Under the pieces are notes generated by a model. The model had not been told where the DNA came from, did not search any database, and saw nothing but the letters and a program-made list of their open reading frames with translations. The translations under genes were made by a program, and so were the position numbers. A DNA stretch of 64,000 nucleotides from Branchiostoma floridae (Eukaryota; Chordata; Leptocardii; Amphioxiformes; Branchiostomatidae): positions 6,178,183 to 6,242,182 of the forward strand of contig NC_049993.1 of assembly GCF_000003815.2 (NCBI RefSeq), given 5' to 3'. Position 1 is the first letter of the stretch. Each line of letters begins with the position of its first letter. Shown here one piece after another: positions 8,801-53,200 of this stretch.

Positions 8801-11800
8801 ATGAACGGCTGCACGGATGCATGTTTTTAGCGGTGAGAAATTCCCTTTTAGCCAGCGGAACTGATCTCAAAAGTTAGATTGGTGAAAGCTTATTTGTAAC
8901 TGAAGAGATTAGCAGGTAAAGTTTTGCAGCCGCGCGCTAGGTAGGAGGTACACAGTCGTGGGTTCTGAGTGGTGCGGTTGTACAATAGCAGCGAAAAAGT
9001 GCCTTTTGTGGGAATTGACTAATCGTAGTTTGTAATTGCTATAAGAAAAGTTCCTACGTATAGTTTACATTTGCAATTTTTTCCCACGATATAGGGTAAA
9101 TGTGCTCGAAATAGAATGAAAAATCTACTGAAATTTCACTTAGCTTCATTATGAACGCGCCCATCTAAACCACGAATTATAACATAGAAGTCTATGGGAA
9201 GAAGAAACTCATCAATGAGACCTCAAGTTTCAAACTATGTCAAACTCAATGGATTATGTGGGAAAGGACAACCTTGAACCAACCGCATACACTTACCCCA
9301 CATCTTCAGAAAGGACGCCGGAGTCGCATAATCTCTAGCAACTGAACAATTTATACACAATGAATTTGGTTTGGTAGGCTGAATAAAAGTTCAGCTTTAA
9401 CTATGCAACTCCAGGTGTCTTACTGAGGGATGACTGCAGTGCAATAGATGTCAGTTAGCTGAATGAGTCCACTCTACTATATATGTCAAACTCAATACTT
9501 AGCAGGGTTGAACAAGTTTTCTAAAATCCACTTGTCCTATCGGGCAAGCACATAAAAAATGTACTTGCCCGAACCAATTTTTCACTTGCCCAAAATTCAA
9601 ATGTCACTGTTACTAGTATATGCATTTTCACTTCCAGCAATGGAATTCTCTGTAGACAATTGCTTGATGTCATGACTGTAAAAAGCAACAAGTATATCAA
9701 AATTGCACTAAAATCAATGGAAAAAATCTTACTTGCCCGATCGGACATGTTGGGTAGGACATGCACTTGCCCGAACAGCACTTTCACTTGCCCTGGACAA
9801 TAGGGCTAGTGGACTTGTTTATCCCTGCTTAGAGATAAGGTAACAAGCACTTCAGTCCTTCACAATGTCTTTCTGCCCTGTGATAGGTGGGTTTGCGAGG
9901 ACTTCCCCGAGCTGAAGCTGGCGATGGAGAACAATGTTCTCCTGGACTACGACACCAAGAGTTACGAGAGCATGAAGACCATCTGTGACAAGTACAACCG
10001 TGCCATCGACGCCACTCTGCAGCTGGTTAGGAAAACTATTCCACAAACATTACTTGACACTCGTTTTCGGATTAAACATTTTTAAAGAAAACTGAATACT
10101 TAGCCAAAAGCTTGAGTATTGAGTATGAGGAGGTTGTATGCACAGTTTCTGGTTATAATCAGATTAAGGTGCACAAATTTAATTTATTTCTCTTCAGAAT
10201 TTTAAGAAAACTTAATGCTAAACTGAAAGCTCAATATAGTGATGGAGGGGAATGTATTTTCCTTGTTATGCCCAGGTTTGGGGAGAGGGGTATGGTCCAA
10301 TTCAGATGTGGGTGACAGTTTGAATGTACATTTTGAAAATATAAACGCTAGTTCACCTTTATCCTTAGAGTATGATTTAAAGCAAGGGAGTTTATACACT
10401 ATTGACTTGATAAGTTGTGCATTAACCAATTGACTTCCAAGAAAAGAAAGTATACCAAGAAAACAATGGATAAGTGATTCAAAGAATGTTAAAAGTCATT
10501 ATCGCAGAGCAACATATGAGAATTTGTACAACTTGAATATCCATGTCATTTTACTACATCATATGTTTCAGTGTAAAAGTTTGATCATAACTTAATTTGA
10601 ATGCATGTAAAAAAAAAAGATTGGATTGTTTGTTGTTTTTGTTTTGATTTATTTTAATCCCCATTCGTTTCGTCACTGTTCACGCCAAGTGTTTCCGTGG
10701 TAACCAGGTGCGTGGCACCACGCGGCCGGCACAGCTGCAGACGCGCCCGTCCCGCGGCCTGCTCCGCCACATCCTGACCCAGGTCTACAACCACTCCATC
10801 GACAACCCCGACAGGCTCAACAACTACGAGCCTTTTTCTCCTGAGGTAAACTAACTGTTTATGCTTTGTGTTTTGCAACTGTCTATGTATTTTGTTAAAT
10901 AACTGTCAACATCAACAGGCTCAACAACTACGAGCCCTTTTCTCCTGAGGTAAACTAACTGTTTGTGCTTTGTGTTTTGTAACTGTCTATGTATTTTGTT
11001 GGTAAATAACTGTCAACATCGACAGGCTCAACAACTACGAGCTGTTCTCTCCAGAAGTAAACTTGTTTAAAATAACTGTCTGTTACGCCAATGAAGGTTA
11101 GACATCCAGGTAATAAGATATGGCCCAAAGCAGTTACTCAAGCAACTGGATATGATTTTGGAAACGGTAAGATGTGGAACCCAAATTCTCTTCAGCTTGA
11201 CTTCGTCTTACCTTTTTTCCTACTGGACAACAAAATGTCTTCAGCACTTTTGCATTCATAGTTAGGATATAAAAGACCAGTTCTCCCAGACCACTTCAGT
11301 GTCATTAACGGAAACTAGTGGATGCTAGTTGAAACGTCTGACCGTTTCCAAAATCATATCCAGTTGCTTGAGTAACTGCTTAATGGCGTAACTGTCTATG
11401 TATTTTGTAATTGTCTATGTATTTGTTCATGCATTTTGTAACTGTCTGTGTATTTTGTAATTGTGTATGTATTTTATAATTAGATAACTGTCTATGTATT
11501 TTGATAATTGTCTACCTATTTCATCTCAAGACATCGAGTTTGCCCCTTCACCTAATAAAAGTTAATTTCCAAAAGGTCCAAGAATAACGCTAGTTCAAAT
11601 TTATCCTTAGAGTATAAGTTAAAGCAAGGGGGTTTATACATACCTTATATCTGCTAGTAATGTGTTGTCCTACACCAGGCAAACACAGTACATTATGACC
11701 TTCATGTTTTAGGTAAATAAAGGTATGGGTATTGCCACTATAGCACATCTTTTACATCACTGAAGTTACTTTAGTCATGGTATATTGAAGTAATTCACCA

Positions 11801-50200: not shown

Positions 50201-53200
50201 TTGTCACTATTATAATAATGGGCCCCCTCCCCACTCACCTGGCAGTGCAAGTAAGGACAGATGATACTCTGTAACCCTGTGATCTTTTAGCCTGGTATCC
50301 AGCTGTGTTGTTAGCCTGGTATACAGCCGTATGATGCAAAAGACTCGGGAGCTATAATAATATTATAGCTCCCGAGTCTTTTGCATTTGAAGAGAGGACA
50401 GATGAGACTCAGGAGCTATAAAACATGGCTGGATACCAGGCTACTTATTCTTCTTATTTTGTCACTAAAAATGCACCCCCCTCCCCTCTCACCTGGCAGT
50501 GGAAGGACTGATGATACTCTGCAGCCCTGTCTGTTCCCTACTCACCTGGCAGTGTAAGGACTGATGATGCTCTGCAGCCCTGTCTGTTCCCTACTCACCT
50601 GGCAGTGTAAGGACTGATGAAACTCTGCAGCCCTGTCTGTTCCCTACTCACCTGGCAGTGTAAGGACTGATGAAACTCTGCAGCCCTGTCTGTTCCCTAC
50701 TCACCTGGCAGTGTAAGGACTGATGATACTCTGCAGCCCTGTCTGTTCCCTACTCACCTGGCAGTGTAAGGACTGATGATACTCTGCAGCCCTGTCTGTT
50801 CCCTACTCACCTGGCAGTGTAAGGACTGATAATACTCTGCAGCCCTGTCTGTTCCCTACTCACCTGGCAGTGTAAGGACTGATGATACTCTGCAGCCCTG
50901 TCTGTTCCCTACTCACCTGGCAGTGTAAGGACTGATGAAACTCTGCAGCCCTGTCTGTTCCCTACTCACCTGGCAGTGTAAGGACTGATGAAACTCTGCA
51001 GCCCTGTCTGTTCCCTACTCACCTGGCAGTGTAAGGACTGATGATACTCTGCAGCCCTGTCTGTTCCCTACTCACCTGGCAGTGGAAGGACTGATGATAC
51101 TCTGCAGCCCTGTCTGTTCCCTACTCACCTGGCAGTGTAAGGACTGATAATACTCTGCAGCCCTGTCTGTTCCCTACTCACCTGGCAGTGTAAGGACTGA
51201 TGATGCTCTGCAGCCCTGTCTGTTCCCTACTCACCTGGCAGTGTAAGGACTGATGATGCTCTGCAGCCCTGTCTGTTCCCTACTCACCTGGCAGTGTAAG
51301 AACTGATAATACTCTGCAGCCCTGTCTGTTCCCTACTCACCTGGCAGTGTAAGGACTGATAATACTCTGCAGCCCTGTCTGTTCCCTACTCACCTGGCAG
51401 TGTAAGGACTGATAATACTCTGCAGCCCTGTCTGTTCCCTACTCACCTGGCAGTGTAAGGACTGATGATGCTCTGCAGCCCTGTCTGTTCCCTACTCACC
51501 TAGCAGTGTAAGGACTGATGATACTCTGCAGCCCTGTCTGTTCCCTACTCACCTGGCAGTGTAAGGACTGATGATGCTCTGCAGCCCTGTCTGTTCCCTA
51601 CTCACCTAGCAGTGTAAGGACTGATGATACTCTGCAGCCCTGTCTGTTCCCTACTCACCTGGCAGTGTAAGGACTGATGATACTCTGCAGCCCTGTCTGT
51701 TCCCTACTCACCTGGCAGTGTAAGGACTGATGATGCTGCAGCCCTGTCTGTTCCCTACTCACCTGGCAGTGTAAGGACTGATGATGCTCTGCAGCCCTGT
51801 CTGTTCCCTACTCACCTGGCAGTGTAAGGACTGATGATACTCTGCAGCCCTGTCTGTTCCCTACTCACCTGGCAGTGTAAGGACTGATGATACTCTGCAG
51901 CNNNNNNNNNNNNNNNNNNNNNNNNNNNNNNNNNNNNNNNNNNNNNNNNNNNNNNNNNNNNNNNNNNNNNNNNNNNNNNNNNNNNNNNNNNNNNNNNNNN
52001 NCAGTGTAAGGACTGATGATGCTCTGCAGCCCTGTCTGTTCCCTACTCACCTGGCAGTGTAAGGACTGATGATGCTCTGCAGCCCTGTCTGTTCCCTACT
52101 CACCTGGCAGTGTAAGAACTGATAATACTCTGCAGCCCTGTCTGTTCCCTACTCACCTGGCAGTGTAAGGACTGATAATACTCTGCAGCCCTGTCTGTTC
52201 CCTACTCACCTGGCAGTGTAAGGACTGATAATACTCTGCAGCCCTGTCTGTTCCCTACTCACCTGGCAGTGTAAGGACTGATGATGCTCTGCAGCCCTGT
52301 CTGTTCCCTACTCACCTAGCAGTGTAAGGACTGATGATACTCTGCAGCCCTGTCTGTTCCCTACTCACCTGGCAGTGTAAGGACTGATGATGCTCTGCAG
52401 CCCTGTCTGTTCCCTACTCACCTAGCAGTGTAAGGACTGATGATACTCTGCAGCCCTGTCTGTTCCCTACTCACCTGGCAGTGTAAGGACTGATGATACT
52501 CTGCAGCCCTGTCTGTTCCCTACTCACCTGGCAGTGTAAGGACTGATGATGCTGCAGCCCTGTCTGTTCCCTACTCACCTGGCAGTGTAAGGACTGATGA
52601 TGCTCTGCAGCCCTGTCTGTTCCCTACTCACCTGGCAGTGTAAGGACTGATGATACTCTGCAGCCCTGTCTGTTCCCTACTCACCTGGCAGTGTAAGGAC
52701 TGATGATACTCTGCAGCCCTGTCTGTTCCCTACTCACCTGGCAGTGTAAGGACTGATGATGCTCTGCAGCCCTGTCTGTTCCCTACTCACCTGGCAGTGT
52801 AAGGACTGATGATACTCTGCAGCCCTGTCTGTTCCCTACTCACCTGGCAGTGTAAGGACTGATGATACTCTGCAGCCCTGTCTGTTCGTCCGTCCCCACC
52901 AGCCTGTTCAGGAAGGTGCGTGGCTGCTGCCCCTGTGCCTTCACCGTGTGCGCCCGGCTCTGGAACCGGTCCAGGATGCGGAAGTCGCCGGCCGACCTTG
53001 AGACGAGCCCCTGCAGCCTGGACGGACTGAAGGGTTCCGGCCAAGCGTTGTCGGTCGCGGTTGCTGTCCCCGTTGCCTCTTGGATACTCGCTGCCACCGC
53101 AGCGTCAATGTCAAACAGGGGCAGTCCTCTCTCTCTCTTCATCTGTTGTGGAGTGAGGGAGTGTTTTATATCACTGGAACAGTCAAATGTTCTGACTTCC

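Follow-up and report, generated by a model that had tools for sequence, protein, structure and literature searches.

A 64-kb window of the Branchiostoma floridae genome (64,000 nucleotides of contig NC_049993.1, here C15, positions 6,178,183 to 6,242,182), which is the whole stretch of DNA analysed, carries a DOT1L gene on the forward strand and a KAT14-like gene on the reverse strand. Each gene holds two tandem arrays in which the end of an exon, its 5' splice site (donor) and the start of the following intron are copied, and these four arrays are new members of the published class of amphioxus repeats known as "mirages". A preliminary description had placed them at the same positions with the same periods and had further proposed that the copied unit always includes a donor and never an acceptor, as the product of a donor-linked process. 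Sequence reading and Tandem Repeats Finder (TRF), with self-BLAST used for a 164-bp pair, confirmed all four arrays. Positions below are those of the window, and loci written c15:n lie at C15:(6100000+n), the window beginning at c15:78183.

The first DOT1L array follows exon 4 (10708..10845, forward strand; exon numbers are those of the preliminary description), which was called by the gene finder, matches human DOT1L and ends at the donor GAG/GTAAAC, the slash marking the splice point. Array a (10811..11063, forward strand) begins with the last ~35 nt of this exon, a length estimated by eye, together with the donor. TRF reports a period of 104 and 2.4 copies, and direct reading resolves periods of 104 and 107. 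Its unit comprises the exon end FSPE/gtaaac with the donor and ~70 nt of intron, so that later donors lie at +104 and +211. The second array follows exon 20 (26441..26572, forward strand, gene finder only; donor AAG/GTCAGG) and consists of two copies with a period of 164, the second at +164, each including ~56 nt of exon end (NNKK/gtcagg) and the intron start. This array b (26517..26760, forward strand, end approximate) was located by sequence reading and by self-BLAST (92% over 89 nt); the pair at 26517/26681 is missing from the TRF list, yet plain in the sequence. As a separate observation, a short stretch reading RHPGNKI... in one frame lies directly 3' of array a (~11076-11170) and has a similar counterpart at 30800-30893, perhaps representing a dispersed repeat.

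In the KAT14-like gene, array c (47880..48176, reverse strand) is a TRF-detected 30-bp unit in 9.9 copies at the end of an exon (48155..48287, reverse strand; gene finder and domain search) that encodes part of a GNAT domain, ends in FMMYHLIQ and has the donor CAG/GTTAGA. Judged by eye, its unit holds ~22 nt of exon end (HLIQ/gttag) and 8 nt of intron start, and the array remains in frame without stops as VRHMMYHLIQ-type repeats. Array d (50484..52887, reverse strand) lies at the end of a gene-finder exon (52844..53142, reverse strand) that ends in SIISPYTA with the donor CAG/GTGAGT; TRF reports it as a 53-bp unit split into 50484-51901 and 52002-52887. The assembly contains ~42 copies, each with ~44 nt of exon and 9 nt of intron carrying a GTGAGT donor, which reads TAG/GTGAGT in four units and CAG/GTGAGT in all others that are readable. 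Sequence reading with unit-by-unit comparison located a 100-N gap within this array (51902..52001), on either side of which units 4-15 and 17-28 show identical variants in identical order. Because twelve units match in order across the gap, array d is probably about 12 units too long as assembled, as would result from two overlapping contig ends left unmerged. Across the four arrays, the copied exon ends (~35, 56, 22 and 44 nt, by eye) agree with the 20-56 nt first reported, and the earlier view that the arrays arose separately, each on the donor side, stands.

To identify the host genes and the donor copy that fits each protein, exons were predicted with a self-trained gene finder without RNA and then translated. 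Human DOT1L aligns ungapped over 165 residues (E 4.5e-81) with the protein obtained by joining the first donor of array a to the following exon, the match crossing the junction FSPE/VYGETS; at DOT1L exon 4, the exon-adjacent copy thus reads into the conserved protein. The corresponding first-copy reading at array c, FMMYHLIQ/TCMGKDV, falls inside the GNAT domain, and the domain search supports GNAT only. The name DOT1L given in the preliminary description is therefore borne out, and KAT14 holds to the level of the GNAT domain; that this gene is KAT14, and that both of its first-copy readings fit the human protein, is our assumption. Later donors introduce a stop in arrays a and b, as does each of the first four later donors of array d, the ones tested. 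In array c, none of the nine later donors introduces a stop; they score 5.6 or 6.0, and the first donor scores 5.6. From the translations, we infer that only the first copy would be spliced.

Mirages have been described as repeats over exon-intron borders, at both 5' and 3' ends of introns, in Adh3, troponin C, the globins BflGb6 and BflGb9, and PGBD5, with unit lengths from 10 to about 160 bp (PMC3087553, PMC3902484). Their length varies between haplotypes, and they are said to leave regular splicing unaffected, a conclusion based on data for Adh3 and on reverse-transcription polymerase chain reaction of globins (PMC3087553, PMC3902484). All four window arrays consist of border-spanning tandem units, and their unit lengths of 30, 53, 104-107 and 164 bp fit the published range, the last slightly exceeding it. 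The association with amphioxus border minisatellites drawn in the preliminary description is therefore sound: both sets are lancelet repeats of minisatellite type in which an exon-intron border recurs in tandem. What differs is that DOT1L and the KAT14-like gene are new hosts, that array d is far longer as assembled, and that the published set includes acceptor-side arrays whereas the four window arrays include none. Literature searches, in which the names DOT1L and KAT14 were not used as terms, turned up no paper on arrays in these genes. A related proposal is the Rogers model of intron gain by tandem duplication of AG/GT sites (named in PMC3087553). The window arrays resemble it in that splice signals are copied by tandem duplication, but their copies extend an existing intron and no new intron is shown. 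Cases of such intron gain are reportedly known from Drosophila and potato. Published accounts of VCBP genes and of C. elegans minisatellites proved to have no bearing on the question.

To compare donors with acceptors, we used a control sample of 340 kb: a 260-kb segment of C15 that contains the window and has 19.5 kb of N, plus 80 kb of a second contig, C4. Once spurious exons inside arrays were dropped, 219 exons remained, with 211 donors and 214 acceptors. In a gapped self-BLAST, copies spanned 9 of 214 donor rows, corresponding to six loci (four in the window and two outside it), and 4 of 217 acceptor rows, corresponding to two loci once two spurious rows of array d were removed. The donor loci outside the window are c15:256259 (period 116) and c15:56246, where the copies lie 418 bp apart, the exon end is uncertain and the host, named by PDB search, is an AP-1 mu-like gene. 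The difference between six loci for 211 donors and two for 214 acceptors is not significant (Fisher p 0.17), and outside the window two donor and two acceptor loci were seen where 2.1 were expected. A stricter search with ungapped 30-mers at junctions had returned 9 of 214 donor rows, which reduce to six loci, three of the nine being surplus exons predicted within arrays b and d. Acceptor hits numbered 3 of 217 rows, each of them located in a donor array, an outcome in line with the preliminary description. Its companion counts were 8/212 donors, 3/216 acceptors, 196/4787 intron, 6/752 exon and 395/2570 other positions. The ungapped search was rejected as too strict, because gapped self-BLAST revealed the two acceptor loci outside the window.

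The clearer of these acceptor loci is c15:257074, where a 65-nt segment, made up of the final 48 nt of an intron and the initial 17 nt of the following exon, has a copy 112 bp upstream (78% identity), the two acceptors scoring 5.3 and 5.4. The intron concerned, c15:256259-257073 (C15 ~6356259-6357073), lies about 115 kb beyond the window and is duplicated at both ends, with a period of 116 at the donor and 112 at the acceptor. Its gene presumably resembles MFSD14; Pfam gave no name to the MFSD14-like or the AP-1-like peptide. The second acceptor candidate from the gapped search, c15:1808, is weak. The copy at c15:257074 breaks the proposed rule of "always donor, never acceptor", as do published acceptor-sided arrays, including BflGb6 (PMC3087553) and PGBD5, whose repeats occur at 5' as well as 3' splice sites (PMC3902484).

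In a placement test, every intron repeat cluster was put at random within its own intron (28 rows), giving an expectation of 3.6 loci at each intron end. The six donor loci seen do not significantly exceed this number (P(6 or more) 0.13), nor do the two acceptor loci fall significantly below it (P(2 or fewer) 0.28). Before the last trim, when three spurious in-array exons had already been removed, the test held 30 rows with seven donor and three acceptor loci against 4.6 expected; the two rows then removed come from a single direct repeat whose copies lie on either side of an entire exon and do not reach across its borders. For the window alone, with 10 intron repeat clusters, ~1.5 would be expected over a donor and four were seen (P(4 or more) 0.04), a value that, like the count of four itself, is less striking because the window was picked after the fact. 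Self-BLAST coverage shows no peak at donors, with 9/214 at the donor itself and 6/213, 7/214 and 8/213 at intron points 100, 200 and 400 nt away; from the acceptor it was 4/217, then 7/214, 8/214 and 8/213 at the same distances. Overall, 327 of 7093 intron points were covered, against 8 of 1151 exon points. A random-point test, which does show acceptor depletion, expected 7.0 over 207 introns and 4.0 over the 43 of the window, with P(2 or fewer) 0.002, and is given little weight because it is partly circular, intron coverage including the donor arrays themselves. The placement and coverage counts together indicate that introns here are rich in repeats, that exon interiors are protected and that donors are struck about as often as chance predicts. 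At low power, donors in the 340 kb are not significantly above random placement.

With moderate confidence, we attribute these mirages to a high local rate of tandem duplication combined with a selection filter, rather than to a donor-seeded process. Ordinary minisatellites would arise by local tandem duplication, through slippage or repair, and unequal exchange would then lengthen them, some of them by chance extending over an exon-intron border. Copies over a donor may be nearly silent, because the exon-adjacent donor, the first to be transcribed, would still give the normal mRNA while later copies end up inside the intron. Selection would remove copies within exons, and copies crossing an acceptor would be possible but less safe, because the decoy acceptor sits upstream of the real one. 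A donor bias, if real, would then reflect the filter rather than a seed. Both this filter and the way the arrays are born are our inference. Elsewhere in the C15 sample, a 12-kb satellite array was observed at C15:6282489-6294573 (c15:182489-194573), with a 183-bp unit in 66 copies.

Several observations weigh against duplication plus filtering. The locus counts lean towards donors, at 6:2 overall and 4:0 in the window alone; the acceptor depletion that a filter would produce is not significant in the placement test; and the exons rest on gene-finder calls made without RNA. Moreover, the local baseline may hide a donor excess, because the C15 stretch is itself rich in repeats, with exact triples at 433 of 240397 positions on C15 versus 1 of 79884 on C4. 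A further body of counter-evidence comes from nine-letter words that occur as exact triples spaced 20-50 bp apart, counted over all 513 Mb with the reversed word as control; one array contributes many matches, and words are counted irrespective of exon position. The donor word CAGGTGAGT gave 288 triples and CAGGTGAGC gave 195, each against 0 for the reversed word, and weaker donor words also exceeded their controls (CAGGTAAGT 27 vs 0, AAGGTAAGT 10 vs 1, AAGGTGAGT 22 vs 9). CAGGTGAGT and CAGGTGAGC are thus strongly over-represented in arrays genome-wide and the other three words slightly to moderately so. This excess is not obviously predicted by a pure filter and constitutes the best evidence for donor seeding.

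For comparison, words broken at +2 (CAGGVGAGT, three words) gave 29 triples vs 29 reversed, words broken at +5 (CAGGTGAHT, three words) 61 vs 7, and the acceptor-like TTTTNCAGG (four words) 79 vs 13. Hand-grouping yielded at least 21 arrays among 100 of the 288 rows for CAGGTGAGT and at least 12 among 100 of the 195 rows for CAGGTGAGC, one array supplying 39 rows; the other three donor words gave 6-7, 6 and 6 arrays, the two broken sets 7 and 15, and the acceptor-like words 19. In the genome, CAGGTGAGT occurs 8474 times (reversed 2225) and AAGGTAAGT 6818 times (reversed 8220). Among the first 100 listed places, grouped by hand, clusters of three or more were found at 7 of 58 CAGGTGAGT loci versus 2 of 94 AAGGTAAGT loci (Fisher p 0.03); for all nine-letter words in the 340 kb, the figure was 1595 of 302178 loci. 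As a side observation, a CAGGTGAGT array at C1:229970-230436 is followed ~0.5 kb later by a 47-bp array (C1:230977-231549) that appears acceptor-sided: a GDSGVGKS-like exon start comes after an intron end rich in pyrimidines.

These counts are what an alternative based on donor-seeded amplification would draw upon, in which strong CAG/GTGAG 5' splice sites act as hot spots of breakage or slippage through R-loops, U1 binding or paused transcription. The CAGGTGAGT and CAGGTGAGC triples, the behaviour of the broken words and the clustering of CAGGTGAGT relative to AAGGTAAGT speak for it. However, the other good donor words are far weaker, only one of the four window donors is of the GTGAG type, and donors in the 340 kb do not significantly exceed random placement. 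In addition, ACCTG occurs by eye within the unit of 10 of the 21 listed CAGGTGAGT arrays, so that minisatellite-prone sequence, rather than donors, may underlie the excess. We therefore consider donor seeding rather unlikely: the donor-linked process first proposed draws support from the word excess and none of significance from the placement and Fisher tests. The over-representation of CAG/GTGAG words keeps alive a bolder version, which we regard as doubtful, in which such sites seed donor arrays across the genome, between dozens and hundreds of them, and the spliceosome consistently chooses the first of many near-identical donors.

It is quite improbable, in our judgement, that the arrays are functional, with repeated donors tuning splicing or giving variant proteins such as the in-frame VRHMMYHLIQ repeats of KAT14. 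The open reading of array c and the scores of its later donors would allow this, but the insert would land within the GNAT domain, and the stops that follow later donors in arrays a, b and d, in d among the four tested, argue against it. An assembly artefact appears more improbable still: the exact 12-unit repeat across the gap of array d fits one, and the older draft genome contained a misassembled globin mirage (PMC3087553), yet arrays a, b and c have no gaps and their copies are not identical to each other, and similar PGBD5 repeats were upheld by re-sequencing (PMC3902484).

Introns that carry many near-identical donors, of which the first alone would give the right protein, represent natural experiments on 5' splice site choice. 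The 53-bp array of the KAT14-like gene is such a case, with about 30 to 42 consecutive GTGAGT donors preceded by CAG in nearly every unit. The arrays also illustrate how introns lengthen. Furthermore, the excess of CAGGTGAGT and CAGGTGAGC, if tied to real exon ends, would link splice sites with the birth of repeats, a connection that can be tested on existing annotation.

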